A stretch of 35,167 nt of DNA from Rubrobacter sp. (GTDB lineage: Bacteria; Actinomycetota; Rubrobacteria; Rubrobacterales; Rubrobacteraceae). The position numbers and the translations under genes are program-made. This document shows positions 14,326 to 26,409 of the stretch, piece by piece; the stretch's first letter is position 1, and the number at the start of each line of letters is the position of its first letter. The notes beneath the pieces are model-generated. The model saw only the letters and a program-made list of their open reading frames with translations, ran no database searches and had not been told where the DNA came from. Location of the stretch: assembly GCA_013697825.1 (NCBI GenBank), contig JACCWD010000161.1, positions 1 through 35,167 on the forward strand, in the 5' to 3' direction.

Positions 14326-15380
14326 CGCCCCTCCTCCAATATCTCCCGCACCTCCGCGTCGGAGACGGCGACGCCCCACCTCGGGCTCCCCGGCTCCTCG
14401 AGGAGGACGAACTTATGCCCCTCGTCCTTCGAGCTCCGCTTCTTGTCCCGGCCCATCGCCTCGATGACGCCGTCCGGGTGGATGTCCGGCGGAACCTTCG
14501 TCGGGAGCTTCGCGGACGCGAGGAGCTCCTCGTGGAGCTCGACGAAATCTACGCCGAGCTTCCTCCTCCCGAGCCGCGCCGACGCGCACATCCCGACCGA
14601 GACAGCCTCCCCGTGCGACGTTCCATACCCCGACACCGCCTCGATCGCATGCCCGATGGTGTGCCCGTAGTTGAGGATCGCCCGAACCCCGCCCTCCCGC
14701 TCGTCGGCCGCGACGATGGACGCTTTGTAACGGATCGCGTGTATTATGAGCTTTTCGAGCGATTCGGGGTCTCCGGCGAGGGCTTCGGGGACGCGGAGGA
14801 GGTTCGTGAGGTATTCGCCGCCCGCGAGGAGGCCCATCTTTATGGCTTCGGCGAGGCCGTTCGAGGTCTCGTTCTCCGGCAGCGTGTCGAGGAAGTCGAG
14901 GTTCGCGGCGACTATTTCGGGTTGGAGGAAGGCGCCGACGAGGTTCTTTCCTTCGGGGAGATCCACGCCCGTCTTCCCGCCGACGGAGGAGTCCACCATC
15001 GCGAGGAGGCTCGTCGGGAGCATGACGAGCCTTATGCCGCGCATATAGCTCGCCGCGACGAAGCCGCCGAGGTCGCCGACGACCCCGCCGCCGAGCGCGA
15101 AGAGCGTCGCGTCGCGGGCGAGGTTCGCACGAGCGAGGGCGCGGAGGATGTCGGCGTACGCCCCGAGGCTCTTCGAGGTTTCGCCAGCCGGGATCTCCAG
15201 CGTCTCGACGACGCTCCATCCGGCGTCTTCGAGGGAGGCCCGGACACCGCTCGCAAACAGCGGCCCGGCGTTCGAGTCCGTCAAAATAGCGCACGAACCC
15301 GGCTCGACGGCCTCGGAGACGGTTTCGCCGACATCGAGCTTCTCCCCGACTATGACAGGGTATCCGGCTCCGACGTTCAC
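14322..15380 (-). CDS. aroB: 3-dehydroquinate synthase
   Basis: This enzyme converts DAHP to 3-dehydroquinate with NAD+ and a divalent metal. The 352-residue protein contains LGGGVVGDLGGFVAASYMRG (about 98-117), the substrate loop LAMVDSSVGGKTGVDLPEGKN (about 127-147), the metal ligands Glu in NGLAEAIKMG, and NYGHTIGHAIEAVSGYGTSHGEAV (about 235-258). I place the start at GTG 15380, which overlaps the aroK stop as GTGA. A TTG five codons upstream is the alternative; the long N-terminal extension further back is aroK shadow. It overlaps aroQ by 4 nt. Confidence 0.97.
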   Translation of the reverse strand: MNVGAGYPVIVGEKLDVGETVSEAVEPGSCAILTDSNAGPLFASGVRASLEDAGWSVVETLEIPAGETSKSLGAYADILRALARANLARDATLFALGGGVVGDLGGFVAASYMRGIRLVMLPTSLLAMVDSSVGGKTGVDLPEGKNLVGAFLQPEIVAANLDFLDTLPENETSNGLAEAIKMGLLAGGEYLTNLLRVPEALAGDPESLEKLIIHAIRYKASIVAADEREGGVRAILNYGHTIGHAIEAVSGYGTSHGEAVSVGMCASARLGRRKLGVDFVELHEELLASAKLPTKVPPDIHPDGVIEAMGRDKKRSSKDEGHKFVLLEEPGSPRWGVAVSDAEVREILEEGR

Positions 15381-15880
15381 GCGGTCAGCCAATGCTCCAC
15401 CTCCTCGGCGACTTCTTCCTGGCTGCGTCCGGCGACGGCGACGGAGAGCGCGGCGGCATCGCGGTAAAGCGGGAGTCGCTCGCGGTATCTCTTCTCGAAC
15501 TCCTCCATGCCCCCGCCGCGGAGGGGCCGCCCCGCTCCGCGAGTCCGGGCGAACAAAACATCGAGGTCTTCTTCGAGGAAGACGGTATGAGATTCTCGAA
15601 GGAGGGCGCGGTTTTCGGCCCGGACGACGACGCCGCCGCCGCACGAGACGACGGGTTCGTCGCTTCGTTCGAGGGTGTCGCGAAGGACTCTATGTTCGAG
15701 GTCGCGGAAATGCCCCTCGCCGGAGGAGGCGAAGATCTCCGGTATCGAACGCCGCGCCGACCGCTCGACTTCATCGTCGAGATCCACGAATCGCCGTCCG
15801 AGCCTGTCGGCGAGCGACCTCCCGACGGTCGTCTTCCCCGACCCCATATACCCGATGAAGGCCACGGGGGCTTGCGACAT
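15377..15880 (-). CDS. aroK: Shikimate kinase
   Basis: This enzyme phosphorylates shikimate at the 3-hydroxyl. The 167 residues carry the P-loop GYMGSGKTTVG (10-20), the shikimate/metal motif FVDLDDEVE (31-39), FRDLE (58-62), the Gly-rich SCGGGVV (79-85) and the lid/adenine motif RTRGAGRPL (112-120). Length is normal (about 165-180). I chose ATG 15880 (MSQAPVAFIGYMG) because the family begins a few residues before the P-loop. The reading frame stays open upstream for another 164 codons through the 15-bp repeat tract, but that part is not kinase-like. It overlaps aroB by 4 nt. Confidence 0.96.
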   Translation of the reverse strand: MSQAPVAFIGYMGSGKTTVGRSLADRLGRRFVDLDDEVERSARRSIPEIFASSGEGHFRDLEHRVLRDTLERSDEPVVSCGGGVVVRAENRALLRESHTVFLEEDLDVLFARTRGAGRPLRGGGMEEFEKRYRERLPLYRDAAALSVAVAGRSQEEVAEEVEHWLTA

Positions 15881-16700
15881 CCGCCCGCTTCCCGACACCA
15901 CCCCCTTCTCCCCCATCGCCGTCATACCCGCCCCGGCGAGCGTCCCGGACGAACATTCGCGCGGGCCTCGTTCGCGCGACGGCAACGCCCGTGGAAACGA
16001 CCCAGCAAGCCGTCCGTCCGACGACGCGTTTCCTCCGCCGAAAGCGATGCGTCCCGAAGAAAGCCGCTCCACCGAAACATCCCCGCGAAGCGTCGAAGCC
16101 GGACACGAAGTTCCCGATGGAGGATCGCCGGGGCGCATCCCACCGGAGCGTTTCCATTCGGAGCGTTTCCATTCGAGGCGCATCCCACCGAAGCCCGTCC
16201 GTCCGGAACCCATAAGGTCGGAGCGTATCCCGCGTGTCCGTACGAGGCGTGTCCGTACGAGGCGTGTCCGGGCGACGGGAATTCCACCGAAGCGTATCCA
16301 TCTGAAGGACATCCGTCCAGGGTGTGCTCGGTCGAGTCGTATCCGTCCGAATCTCGGCCATCCGAAGCGCATTCCACCGAAGCGTGTTCGGTTGGGGCGT
16401 TTCCGACCGAAGGAGGGTGTCCATCCGCAGTGTATCCGGAAAAAATGTATCCGGTGGGATCGTGTCCGGTCGAGGTATGCGACTTCATACGGTCTCCGTT
16501 CACATTCCGGGTGTCCGGCGAAGGTCGGAAACCGTCCTCGCGCTTCCCCCGTTCCGGCACTCCGGCGGCGGAATGCTTCGATCGGCGACCGAATATACGG
16601 GGCGGGCTTTCCCGGAACCCGGATCGCGCCGAAAGCCCCGTGTCCGGGCGGGGGCGGCCTTCGGGGCGTTCGTTCAGGTTCGTCGGGGGCGCGGCTCTTT
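15881..16700. other. 820-nt spacer between aroC and aroK
   Basis: There is no recognisable gene. The central part, 16130-16501, is a tract of degenerate 15-bp tandem repeats described separately, with weaker repeat-like words continuing down to about 16040. The flank at 16502-16700 shows no repeat and no clear terminator after aroC. Several frames on both strands are open through the whole tract. This follows from the base composition of the repeat, which contains few T-A-R combinations in any frame, and is not evidence of coding. Confidence 0.7.
16130..16501. repeat. Degenerate 15-bp tandem repeat tract, about 25 units
   Basis: On the plus strand the unit consensus is GAAGCGTATCCGTCC. Two exact neighbours are GGAGCGTTTCCATTC (16145-16159 and 16160-16174). 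Other clear units are at 16244-16258, 16259-16273, 16289-16303, 16334-16348, 16364-16378 and 16427-16441. Only two departures from the 15-nt period were seen: a 24-nt double unit at 16220-16243 and an 18-nt unit at 16409-16426. In a hand tally of 22 units, positions 1, 6, 9, 11 and 15 are nearly fixed while 2, 3, 8, 12, 13 and 14 vary. This pattern does not track the wobble position of any frame. Confidence 0.8.
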
Positions 16701-17870
16701 TCAATGACCGCCGCTTTTGCCGATGCGGGAGATGCGATCCATGTACGCCCCGTATGAGACCCGGATGTCGGTCATGTTGTCGGAGCCGAACTTGTCGAGG
16801 AAGACCTCCGCGAGGACGACGGCGACCATCGCCTCGCCGATCACGGCGGCGGCGGGGACGGCGCACGAGTCGGCCCGCTCCTTGAACGCCTTCGCTTCTT
16901 CACCCTTTGCGAGATCCACGGTTCGAAGCTGCTTGGAGATCGTGGATATGGGCTTCATCGCCGCCGAGACGACGACGGGTTCTCCGTTCGTCATGCCGCC
17001 TTCGAGGCCGCCGAGGCGGTTCGAGGCGCGGGCGATGGAGCCGTCTTCGAGGATGATCTCATCCTGAACCTCGCTGGAGCGGCGCTTGGCGACCTCGAAG
17101 CCCATCCCGACCTCGACGCCCTTCATCGCGTTTATGCCCATGAGGGCGGCGGCGAGCTTCGCGTCGAGCTTGTCGCGCCAGTCCACATACGAGCCGAGTC
17201 CGGGCGGGCATCCCTCGGCCACGACGACGAACTCCCCGCCGAGGGCGTCTCGGGCGTACCGGGCCTCGTCTATCTCGGCCTTCATCCGCTCGGAGACCTC
17301 CGGGTCGGGGCATCGAACCTCCGAGGAGTCGGCCTTCGCCGCGCCGAGGGCGGCGGCCTCCTTCTCCATCGCCGCCTTCCCGATACGGTACACCGCGCTG
17401 CTTATTTTTATGCCGAAGTCGGCGAGGAGTTTCCGGGCGACGCCCCCGGCGGCGACCCGGGCGGTCGTCTCGCGGGCGCTCGAGCGTTCGAGGATGTTCC
17501 GGAGGTCGTCCGTGGCGTATTTCTGCATCCCGGCGAGGTCGGCGTGGCCGGGCCTCGGGAGGGTGATCGCCTCGGGCGGGTCTTCGACGGGGGCGGGGCT
17601 CATGCGATGCTCCCAGCTCGCGTAATCCCGGTTCCGCACGAGCATCGCTATGGGCGAGCCGAGGGTGTATCCGTGGCGGACGCCGCCGAGGAACTCTATC
17701 TCGTCGGTCTCGATCTTTTGCCTGCCGCCGCGTCCGTATCCTTGCTGGCGGCGGGCGAGGTCGCGGTTCACGTCCTCGGCGAGGATACCGAGTCCGGCGG
17801 GGACGCCGTGGACGATGGTGACCTCGCCGGGGCCGTGGGACTCCCCTGCCGTCGAAAAGCTGAAATTCAA
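16701..17870 (-). CDS. aroC: Chorismate synthase
   Basis: This enzyme forms chorismate from EPSP using reduced FMN, the last common step to aromatic amino acids. The 389-residue protein has the N-terminal signature FSTAGESHGP (4-13) with its catalytic His. It also has RQQGYGRGGRQKIETD, the middle signature RSSARETTARVAAGGVARKLL (about 128-148), NRLGGLEGGMTNGEPVVVSAAMKP (split here for reading at about 287-310) and SDNMTDIRVSYGAYMDRI near the C-terminus. The start is TTG 17870, preceded by GAGGAAG; an in-frame stop excludes a start further back. It follows the PilP-like gene by 12 nt, so pilus and shikimate genes are probably cotranscribed. It is the first aro gene, and a long repeat spacer separates it from aroK. 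Confidence 0.98.
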   Translation of the reverse strand: MNFSFSTAGESHGPGEVTIVHGVPAGLGILAEDVNRDLARRQQGYGRGGRQKIETDEIEFLGGVRHGYTLGSPIAMLVRNRDYASWEHRMSPAPVEDPPEAITLPRPGHADLAGMQKYATDDLRNILERSSARETTARVAAGGVARKLLADFGIKISSAVYRIGKAAMEKEAAALGAAKADSSEVRCPDPEVSERMKAEIDEARYARDALGGEFVVVAEGCPPGLGSYVDWRDKLDAKLAAALMGINAMKGVEVGMGFEVAKRRSSEVQDEIILEDGSIARASNRLGGLEGGMTNGEPVVVSAAMKPISTISKQLRTVDLAKGEEAKAFKERADSCAVPAAAVIGEAMVAVVLAEVFLDKFGSDNMTDIRVSYGAYMDRISRIGKSGGH

Positions 17871-20151: not shown

Positions 20152-21750
20152 TCACTCGTCCTCCATGGCGAGTCCGAGCGAGATGGCGAGGACTGCCTCC
20201 ATCGCGCCGAGTTGCTCGTCGGAGACGTTGGAGCGGTTCGCGGCGAGCTTGGCCGCCGGACGCGCCCGCTCGGTCGCGACGCCGAGCAGATCCTCGATAT
20301 AGTTTTCGAGGCCGCGAACGAGCGCGCCCTCGCCGGAGATGAAGATCCGGGCCACCTCTCGCGCGTCCGAACGCGAGTTGTGGAACTCGACCGAACGCTG
20401 AACCTCCTCCGCCAGCCTCCCCGCCGCATCCTCCAACCCCCGCCGAACATCGTACATGAGCGCGGGATCCCAGCTAAGCTCCTCCGTCTTTGCCTCCCCG
20501 CCAACCACGCCCGCATCCTCGACATCCTCCCCGACGCCCCCATCCTCTTCGGATACGCCATCCCCGCCACCCGCCCCCTCGCCGGACTCGGTGTCCGACT
20601 CGCCGTCGGAAACTCCGTCTCCGCCTTCCGTCCCTTCGCGGCCATCCTCCCCGGCCCCGGAAACGTCGTCTCCGTCGTCCGTCGCTTCGCCGCCGCTCTC
20701 ACGGCCTCCGGAGCCGACAAATGACGCGCCGTCCGGAACCCCCTCTTCATCGTCGGACGTTCCCTCGGAGCCGTCCTCCCCGACGCCATCGTCGGCGAAC
20801 TCCGCGGCGCCGTCGTCGGCGGCTTCCGAAGACTCCTCGATTTCCTCCTCATCGCCCCGGACGGCGGACGGGTCTATTTCCAGCGTATCGTCGACTTCGG
20901 AGCCTCCGCCGTCGGCCTCACCTTCACCTTCCGGTTTATATGCGTCGAGAGCCAAAGTCTCGGCTTCGCTCGAAGATTCAACGCGGTCTTCGTCGGCGTC
21001 GTGGAGGAAGGAGCCGATGTTCGCCCTCGGGTTGAGGGCTTGCCTGTCGGCTTCGTCGGCTTCGATGTTGGCGGCTTCGGCGACGGCTTGGGAGAAGTCG
21101 CGGAAGCCGAGGGGGATGAATTGGGTGAGGGTCGGCATGCGGTTTTGGACGATGACGAGATTCGATATCTCGGTTCCGATGTCGAGGAGGAGGACGGTCT
21201 CTTCGTTGTCGAAGAGGGCGTCGGGGAGGGCGGAGCGCATGAGGGCGAGGGCTTTCACGTCAATGCCCGCCGGACGGAGGCCGCCGGACCGGGCGGCGGT
21301 CGTGTAACCGGAGATCATGTCCCTATGGGCGGCGACGAGGAGGACGCGGTCTTCGTCGGGGTTTTCGGTGGAGGGGCCGAGGACGAGGTGGTCGAGGACG
21401 GCGTCGTCGAGGGGGATCGGGATGTGTTCCTCGGCCTGGAAGCCCATCGCGCTGGCGAGATCTTCGGGACTGAGGCGCGGAAAATCCACGAAGCGGACGA
21501 TCACGTTCCTCCCGGCGACCCCGAGGACGACGGACTTTCCCCGGAAGGAGTGGAGATCCCAGAATTCCTTTATCTCCTTCGCGAGCATCTCCGAGTCGGC
21601 GACCTCGCCCTCGATAATCGCGCCTTCGGGGAGCTTATGGTATCCGACGTGTTTGAGGACGAAACCGTCGGCGGCTTTGGAGATCTGGACGGCCTTTATG
21701 GCCCCCCGATCCACATCCATGCCGATGGCCTCCCCCCGGAACCTCTCCAT
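20152..21750 (-). CDS. pilM: Type IV pilus assembly protein PilM with large acidic insert
   Basis: PilM is an actin-like cytoplasmic ATPase-fold protein that anchors PilN. The N-terminus has IGMDVDRGAIKAVQISK (9-25), then the family's VVLGVAGRNVIVRFVDFPRL, LASAMGFQAEEHIPIPLDDA and LLLDIGTEISNLVIV (187-201). Residues about 427-532 complete the fold: VRRGLEDAAGRLAEEVQRSVEFH, IFISGEGALVRGLENYI and an ISLGLAMEDE end. Between them, residues about 251-425 are a Glu/Asp/Gly/Ser-rich, probably disordered insert that brings the protein to 532 residues against about 350 for typical PilM. The ATG has GGAGGG 9 nt upstream. It is first in the pilM-N-O order; no pilin, PilB, PilC, PilT or secretin is in the window. 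Confidence 0.92.
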   Translation of the reverse strand: MERFRGEAIGMDVDRGAIKAVQISKAADGFVLKHVGYHKLPEGAIIEGEVADSEMLAKEIKEFWDLHSFRGKSVVLGVAGRNVIVRFVDFPRLSPEDLASAMGFQAEEHIPIPLDDAVLDHLVLGPSTENPDEDRVLLVAAHRDMISGYTTAARSGGLRPAGIDVKALALMRSALPDALFDNEETVLLLDIGTEISNLVIVQNRMPTLTQFIPLGFRDFSQAVAEAANIEADEADRQALNPRANIGSFLHDADEDRVESSSEAETLALDAYKPEGEGEADGGGSEVDDTLEIDPSAVRGDEEEIEESSEAADDGAAEFADDGVGEDGSEGTSDDEEGVPDGASFVGSGGRESGGEATDDGDDVSGAGEDGREGTEGGDGVSDGESDTESGEGAGGGDGVSEEDGGVGEDVEDAGVVGGEAKTEELSWDPALMYDVRRGLEDAAGRLAEEVQRSVEFHNSRSDAREVARIFISGEGALVRGLENYIEDLLGVATERARPAAKLAANRSNVSDEQLGAMEAVLAISLGLAMEDE

Positions 21751-24192: not shown

Positions 24193-26409
24193 TCATACCT
24201 CCTCGGGGTCTATCTCGACTTCCACTTCAAAATCTCGGCCCTTCGACAGCCGCCGGACGGCCTCGCCCCCGGCCCGCGCCACACCCTCGCGCGTACCGGA
24301 TCTCAAAACCACGCGCCACCGCGAAGACTTCGAGCCGGGGACCGGTATCGGCTCCGACGCTTCGATGCCATCGCCGAGAGCCGGGAGCGTAGATTTTACC
24401 GCACGCCGCACCGCGTCCCCCCGCCCATGAAACGTGAGCAACGCGAGGTGCGAATACGGCGGATACCCGAGCCGACGAAGCCGGGAAAGCTCGGCGTCGG
24501 CGAACCCCCGGTAATCCTCGCGGAGCGCGGCTTGAAGCGCGTAATGCTCCGGATTCCTCGTCTGCGCGACGAGGAGCGTCCGGGCGGACTCCGCCGCCCC
24601 GTGGAAGACGCGGAACGCCCGCTCCACCGAACCCATCCACCCTCCCGCCAGGAAGGAGTCGGCGTCGGGGATGGCGACGGTGTCCCAGTCGCGCGCGAGA
24701 ACGGGGCGCGCCGTGCCGACGACGACACGGGCGTCGTCGAGTTCGCGCTCGTTCGCAGTCAAAAGCCCGATGTCCACTTCGAGGAGGTCGGAAAGCCGCT
24801 CCCGGACGCGCTCGACGGCCATCCCCGTCGGCGAGACGCGCTTCGAGCCGCACTCCGGGCATTCCGGCTCGAAGCGCGCCCGATGGCCGCACCGGGCGCA
24901 CGTCAAAGCCTTCCCGCGCAAAGAGAAGGGGATGTCGCAGTTCGGACACTTCCGGACGCTCCCGCAATGGAGGCACGAGACGGCGGTCGCGTACCCGAGC
25001 CGATCCACGACGACCCCGACCCTCCCACCACCCTCCACCGCCCCGCGGAACGCGGAGACGACGGTCGAACTCACGTCCGCGCCCGAACCCCGCATGTCCA
25101 CGAGCCGCACCGAAGGCCACCTTTCCGCCCGACGCGCCGGAAGCTCGGAGCCTCCGACGGACGAGAAGAGCCGGAGGGACGGCGTCGGGGAGAGAAAGAG
25201 AACCGGGACACCCTCCATCTCGCCGCGGCGCATCGCGAGTTCGCGGGCGTGAATGGGGAGTCCTTCATAGCCACCGGACTCGGCTCGGTGGGCCTCGTTC
25301 GGCTCGTCGGCGACGCATATCGCCCCGAGTCCCTCCATCGGAACGAGCGCGGCAGCGCGGGCTCCGACGAGGACGTCCACATCCCCGAGGCCCGCCATCC
25401 TCCATATTTCGGCCCGATTCCGCCCGGCTTCGCCGTGATACGCGGCGATGCGCGAGCCTTTCGGGAGGCTCCGGCTCATATGCTCAACGAGGCCGTCCAC
25501 CTTCCGGATCTCCGGCGCGAGGACGAGCATCGTCTTCCCCGCACCGACAACCGCCCGCCCCATCGCCGCGACCGCTTCCGGGATGTCGCGGGAAGGCATG
25601 CGCCACAACGACGACCCGCGCTCCATCGCGGACGAAACACCCCGTTCGATGGCGCGGGGAACCTCCGAAGGCCATTCCCCGCTCGACGTGACGATGGAGG
25701 TCGAGGGCCGGACTTCGAGCCTCACTGCGCCCCGCCCCGCCAGCGAGCGGAGTGTGGCGCGGGAAGCCTCCGACTTCGATAGGAGGTCGGAAACGGGCAT
25801 CTCACCGCCGCCCTCGCGAAGCGTTTCGAACATTTCGCTTTGCCGGTATGCTCTTCCAAAGGCCGGGATCGAGCCGTTCCGAACCGACGCCCATTCCTCC
25901 GTGCGGACGGAGGAGAGGCGCGGAGAAAGTTCGATGCGCTCCCCGACTTCGGCGGCGTTCATCGCCGTCGCGCCAAGGATACGTTTCAGTTCGGCGCGTT
26001 CGACGACTTCACCTTCGCTCCATTTCCATCCGCGCCGGGGGCGTACGACGCGGTATTTATCCGCCTCGATGCCGGGCGGGAGCGCGGCCCGGAGGGCGGC
26101 GGCGGGAGAAACGGCGGACTGTTCGGCGGCCCACTCACACAGCCGGACGACGTTCGCGGTGAGGAAAATCTCATCCGACACGGTGATGAGGCTTTCGGTG
26201 GCTCGTTCGTCCGCTTCCCCGAGTTCGACGACGATGCCGAGGCGGGGGCGGCCCGAGAGGGGGGCGACGACGAGCGAGCCGACCTTCGGGCGGAGGTTCG
26301 GCGGGATCGAATAGCTCAAAGGCGGGAGGGAGCGGGTCGGGATCAAAAAGCAAACCCGCGCCGAACCATTCTCGGCGCGGGTTTGCAGACTGTCTTCCCG
26401 CTCGGGCAA
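24193..26409 (-). CDS. priA: PriA-like primosomal protein N' without helicase ATPase motifs
   Basis: A 738-residue PriA homologue. The N-terminal DNA-binding domain is recognisable (ARVCFLIPTRSLPPLSYSIP at about 17-36; LVVAPLSGRPRLGIVVEL). The eight-Cys zinc region is present (CLHCGSVRKCPNCD, CARCGHRARFEPECPECG, about 475-520), as is the C-terminal part with PPYSHLALLTFHG. The Walker A site (GVTGSGKTE in active PriA) reads WRMPSRDIPEA, and the DEEH box reads ADEPNEAH, so ATP-driven unwinding should be lost. Actinobacterial PriA proteins are known for this, and a structural replisome-loading role is assumed. The TTG start at 26409 has no good ribosome site. The metK terminator hairpin falls within codons about 9-20. 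A TTG near 26348 is the alternative but would remove the first domain strand. Confidence 0.9.
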   Translation of the reverse strand: MPEREDSLQTRAENGSARVCFLIPTRSLPPLSYSIPPNLRPKVGSLVVAPLSGRPRLGIVVELGEADERATESLITVSDEIFLTANVVRLCEWAAEQSAVSPAAALRAALPPGIEADKYRVVRPRRGWKWSEGEVVERAELKRILGATAMNAAEVGERIELSPRLSSVRTEEWASVRNGSIPAFGRAYRQSEMFETLREGGGEMPVSDLLSKSEASRATLRSLAGRGAVRLEVRPSTSIVTSSGEWPSEVPRAIERGVSSAMERGSSLWRMPSRDIPEAVAAMGRAVVGAGKTMLVLAPEIRKVDGLVEHMSRSLPKGSRIAAYHGEAGRNRAEIWRMAGLGDVDVLVGARAAALVPMEGLGAICVADEPNEAHRAESGGYEGLPIHARELAMRRGEMEGVPVLFLSPTPSLRLFSSVGGSELPARRAERWPSVRLVDMRGSGADVSSTVVSAFRGAVEGGGRVGVVVDRLGYATAVSCLHCGSVRKCPNCDIPFSLRGKALTCARCGHRARFEPECPECGSKRVSPTGMAVERVRERLSDLLEVDIGLLTANERELDDARVVVGTARPVLARDWDTVAIPDADSFLAGGWMGSVERAFRVFHGAAESARTLLVAQTRNPEHYALQAALREDYRGFADAELSRLRRLGYPPYSHLALLTFHGRGDAVRRAVKSTLPALGDGIEASEPIPVPGSKSSRWRVVLRSGTREGVARAGGEAVRRLSKGRDFEVEVEIDPEEV
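26345..26385 (-). terminator. Strong intrinsic terminator after metK, inside the priA 5' end
   Basis: A perfect 14-bp stem (26351-26364 with 26372-26385, arms CAAACCCGCGCCGA and complement) and a 7-nt loop are followed on the minus strand by C and TTTTT (26345-26349). It lies 37 nt after the metK stop. It encodes about residues 9-20 of the longest priA frame, so it may attenuate priA-def-fmt expression. Confidence 0.9.

Follow-up and report, generated by a model that had tools for sequence, protein, structure and literature searches.

Tandem arrays in operon gaps are already known. MIRU repeats occupy the gap between senX3 and regX3 of Mycobacterium tuberculosis and can drive regX3 alone (PMC4213456). 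In Bacillus and other groups, species-specific tandem repeats keep to a constant size of 20-21 or 52 nt (PMC8161180), and BrickBuilt of Porphyromonas gingivalis is a minisatellite-containing MITE (PMC4596501).

The locus compared with these systems lies in a 35,167-nt stretch of Rubrobacter sp. DNA (contig JACCWD010000161.1, positions 1 to 35,167; the window), where a degenerate 15-bp tandem array stands between aroC and aroK. Like the MIRU repeats of senX3-regX3, it is a non-coding, lineage-restricted tandem array in the gap of an actinobacterial operon; MIRU units, however, are 53-77 bp long, nearly identical, and present at several loci, whereas the units here are 15 bp long, strongly diverged, and found as an array at one locus (PMC4213456). 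Unlike the promoter-capable MIRU gap, this one gave no promoter signal in a sigma-70 search. The array resembles the Bacillus-type repeats in being a species-specific tandem repeat without protein relatives, but a single genome holds many of those arrays, and their period is fixed at 20-21 or 52 nt (PMC8161180), in contrast to the one 15-nt array here and to the periods of 14, 17, and 84 in other arrays of the genus. BrickBuilt is likewise an intergenic minisatellite confined to one species, but it has 19 copies with inverted-repeat ends (PMC4596501), while this array is single copy and has no bounding inverted repeats.

A first-pass annotation, made from the sequence alone, knew of no described element of this kind at the locus, a statement that needs qualifying in light of the MIRU array in an operon gap (PMC4213456). 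The aroC-aroK array is most likely a fresh example of an already known kind, the lineage-specific decaying intergenic minisatellite, and it fits a genus pattern of tandem expansions with differing periods.

The aroC-aroK spacer across the family

The operon is encoded on the minus strand in the order aroC, gap, aroK, aroB, aroQ, with a G-rich ribosome-binding-like sequence directly upstream of aroK. The features flanking and including the gap are as follows.

16701 to 17870, minus strand: aroC, chorismate synthase, the upstream operon gene (Pfam PF01264, E 8e-117)
15881 to 16700, minus strand: aroC-aroK intergenic spacer, 820 nt, lineage-specific by family spacer comparison
15377 to 15880, minus strand: aroK, shikimate kinase (Pfam PF01202, E 3e-40)

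The gap length of 820 nt given by the first-pass annotation was exact. The best named relative is Rubrobacter sp. MGR_bin253 (JACDAJ010000306.1). In the sister genome, one of the two genomes of the genus that were compared, the aroC-aroK distance is 691 nt, while it ranges from −7 to 80 nt across 22 further members of the family. Because the spacer is long in both genomes of the genus and short in the 22 others, the long gap can be placed as an event of the genus.

Alignment blocks shared with the sister genome end 8 nt past aroC and 16 nt ahead of aroK, the remainder of the spacer does not align with the sister spacer, and neither an array nor significant periodicity was found in the latter. 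Divergence between the two species at four-fold sites is 23% in aroC and 36% in aroK, so a spacer that cannot be aligned at this distance either has been replaced or is changing faster than those sites. With so little aligned and no array in the sister, the repeat itself is not conserved between the two species. The pattern proposed in the annotation as a sign of a DNA-level element, a conserved unit with changing copy number in related genomes, was not seen directly between the two genomes of the genus; the sister spacer lacks the array.

The locus is an example of intergenic DNA growing and turning over in a compact bacterial operon while gene order stays undisturbed. A gene pair that abuts elsewhere stands 700-800 nt apart in one genus, with spacer content that is unrelated between its two species.

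Structure of the 15-bp array

Three features were delimited within the spacer, none with an assigned strand.

16130 to 16501: degenerate 15-bp tandem array of about 25 units, consensus GAAGCGTATCCGTCC on the plus strand
16144 to 16175: perfect local duplication inside the array, 100% identical (Tandem Repeats Finder)
16232 to 16270: second perfect local duplication inside the array, 100% identical (Tandem Repeats Finder)

The array and its roughly 25 copies, first noticed from the sequence alone, were borne out statistically. Identity at lag 15 across 16130-16501 is 195/357, or 54.6% (z ~12), and matching continues at lags 30, 45, and 60; among 2,000 first-order-Markov sequences of the same composition, the best lag in any sequence reached at most 38%. 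A cyclic profile fit of the same interval yielded the consensus GAAGCGTATCCGTCC, with 23 full in-register units plus one 24-nt stretch and one 18-nt stretch, the same two length changes that the annotation had given, and no clear register beyond these coordinates. The profile also agreed with the hand tally that variability is highest at unit positions 2, 3, 8, 12, 13, and 14.

Units differ from the consensus at 111 of 345 sites (mean, 32%), with transitions accounting for 65 of the 111 differences. Apart from a few local duplications, units that are far apart are as similar to each other as adjacent units are. Running a tandem-repeat finder, as the annotation had suggested, was informative in part: the local pieces at 16144-16175 and 16232-16270 reached the Tandem Repeats Finder threshold, but the array as a whole remained below it. 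The perfect duplication at 16144-16175 is evidence of later unit duplication, and the combination of diverged units with a few local duplications is the picture of a long-past amplification followed by decay and occasional new duplications.

In each respect used to define a minisatellite, the tract behaves as one. It consists of a head-to-tail unit within the range of ~10-100 bp, repeated about 25 times and beyond chance (54.6% versus at most 38%); the unit lacks coding constraint by synonymous counts and codon scores; and presence varies among close relatives, the array being absent from the sister spacer.

Coding and regulatory readings

The tract is unusually open. As the annotation stated, the aroK frame is uninterrupted through the 820-nt gap, and in total three of the six frames are open over the entire spacer, an outcome not seen in 1,000 dinucleotide shuffles. 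Stop triplets within the array number 3, compared to 8.8 in column shuffles (P 0.003). The longest plausible open frame is

15922 to 16488, minus strand: SDGYA frame, 188 aa, with GGAG 5 bases before the ATG at 16488

These features would suit a protein of either of two kinds: an orphan pentapeptide-repeat product with SDGYA repeats, read from ATG 16488, or an AroK lengthened at its N terminus by GRIRF repeats. Selection on a protein should leave a synonymous excess in one frame, and unit-versus-consensus differences were classed as synonymous or not for each of the six frames. No frame had such an excess: 23 to 42 of the 111 differences were synonymous, compared to 28.7 to 39.2 expected, with 23 versus 30.7 in the SDGYA frame and 28 versus 28.7 in the GRIRF (aroK) frame. 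Six-frame codon-usage scores of the tract lay between −0.16 and 0.00, while aroC and aroK scored 0.37 and 0.32. The open frame from ATG 16488 matched no Pfam family above the cut-off, a search of 40 genomes of the family gave it chance-level scores and no convincing relative, and the aroK frame meets four stops in the sister spacer.

The depletion of stop triplets was also weakened as a sign of coding. In column shuffles, 10% of comparable triplet sets were as depleted as the stop set, and a stop-free unit, once repeated, opens several frames at once; 25 copies of such a unit account by themselves for much of the open-frame excess. The two length changes, both multiples of 3, had been offered as a further hint of coding, yet this would occur by chance about 1 time in 9 and carries no evidence. 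Coding in any frame was rejected because a synonymous excess, gene-like codon usage, and protein relatives were all missing, in agreement with the annotation's own view that the repeat is not coding-like. The frame at 15922-16488 was judged not to be a gene, and a protein product of either kind is very unlikely. More generally, a G+C-rich repeat can hold long open frames without being a gene.

The annotation favored a role at the DNA or RNA level, such as a protein-binding array or a long leader on the aroK-aroB-aroQ mRNA; in a wider form of this reading, the array or its surroundings would also provide these genes with a promoter of their own. Such a role would be in keeping with the position of the array in an operon that is tightly packed elsewhere in the family, with the retention of a long spacer in both genomes of the genus, and with the ability of MIRU to act on regX3 (PMC4213456). 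The sequence, however, is not conserved in the sister species. No match to a sigma-70-type promoter, the one promoter class searched, was present in the spacer, nor was there a terminator match. The predicted RNA fold was no better than that of shuffled sequences for the tract (z = 0.37) or the whole spacer (z = −0.53), and no Rfam family matched; on these two results, a structured RNA leader was rejected. No relative of the spacer could be aligned to look for covariation.

The spacing of the units is also a poor fit to a protein-binding array. Fifteen base pairs correspond to about 1.4 helical turns, leaving successive sites out of phase rather than on one face of the helix. The role favored in the annotation thus gained no support (no array in the sister; no fold, sigma-70-type promoter, terminator, or Rfam evidence; unphased spacing), and a regulatory spacer is an unlikely, though not negligible, alternative. 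The array may still influence aroK expression incidentally, in the way that MIRU repeats act in senX3-regX3. There is little chance that the genus inserted a functional spacer whose 15-bp array is regulatory or codes for an orphan peptide made of repeats, its conservation masked by fast turnover. A functional spacer would amount to a fast-evolving switch placed between aroC and aroK, although none of the results calls for one.

Origin of the array and other tandem repeats in the genus

The best reading of the tract, and in our judgment a probable one, is an old, decaying, non-coding minisatellite within a genus-specific, fast-turning-over intergenic expansion; the annotation had listed an old diverging minisatellite among its candidates. 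On this reading, the array is filler restricted to one species rather than a functional element. This reading is preferred because there is no synonymous excess, codon scores are near zero, and fold, Rfam, sigma-70-type promoter, and terminator signals are absent. It is also preferred because the long spacer is found only in this genus and does not align with that of the sister, one array was found, local duplications are perfect, and other tandem insertions occur in the genus. A 15-bp segment may have been amplified via replication slippage or unequal recombination, after which the array would have decayed with no reading frame constrained, carried as a spacer in the aro transcript. Any effect on expression of aroK-aroB-aroQ, such as uncoupling of aroK translation from aroC, would be incidental.

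Simple decay meets one difficulty. Divergence of the units from consensus (32%) is greater than the part of the 23-36% four-fold divergence that falls to one lineage, so simple neutral decay would date the array to before the split of the two species, yet no remnant of it stands in the sister. With two genomes to compare, the conflict would be explained by loss or replacement in the sister, by arrival of the array in a mixed state, or by change faster than at four-fold sites.

A more specific version of such an arrival is that the array entered already diverged within a foreign or mobile segment, for example, by illegitimate recombination. This would account both for unit divergence greater than species divergence and for absence from the sister, and bacterial genomes commonly vary by the replacement of small segments (PMC2884548). 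Against it, the spacer has the G+C content of its surroundings (65.6% versus 65.4% for the window), and a plasmid or phage origin was rejected, as no match was found in either. No similar array was present in 40 family genomes, where weak DNA matches consisted of 17- to 46-bp pieces without an array of such kind around them. Terminal inverted repeats do not bound the spacer, which contains only two internal inverted repeats, and related copies at several loci, the other mark of a MITE or interspersed repeat, were lacking. Entry on a foreign segment is, on this evidence, highly improbable.

A search of the genome for the 15-mer, also suggested in the annotation, did not reveal a second array, whether the query was the pattern of the unit or the DNA of the tract. 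The unit within two mismatches occurs at 22 places in the genome, 2 of them inside the array, compared to 2 for a reversed control. Six near-matches outside the array were inspected and were isolated, in coding-like sequence, and dispersed unit copies as arrays were rejected on that ground.

Other arrays were sought in 376 kb sampled from the same genome and in 210 kb from the sister. In the same genome, a 17-bp array of ~3.8 copies lies between protein kinase and thiamine-diphosphate enzyme genes (contig 60, L064:3897-3960). A nearly perfect 15-bp repeat (contig 25, L061:9160-9294) codes for the PETAV repeats of a secreted, amidase-like protein; as a coding repeat, it was rejected as a relative of the aro array. 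In the sister, nine near-identical 14-bp units (TGGCGAAAGCCGGA) stand at a contig end beside a TolB-like repeat protein gene (contig 302, L081:1-126) and are a young non-coding minisatellite.

In the sister, the gene for the PriA helicase contains an 84-bp tandem repeat inserted in frame (contig 264, L078:11560-12010). Its open frame is 963 aa, compared to 738 aa in the window (24193-26409), where the insertion is absent, and the repeat makes up much of the difference. Also in the window, a 51-bp-period repeat at 20497-20809 lies in a stretch that aligns poorly with the sister, where periods of 84 and 99 stand; it is probably a low-complexity, variable linker within a protein of the pilus cluster. 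Four 37-nt repeats (GTTGCAGACCCACTCCCGATAGATAGGGAACTGAAAG) at 73-nt spacing stand at a contig end in the sister (contig 245, L090:2868-3116), where the fourth is truncated, and resemble the beginning of a CRISPR array.
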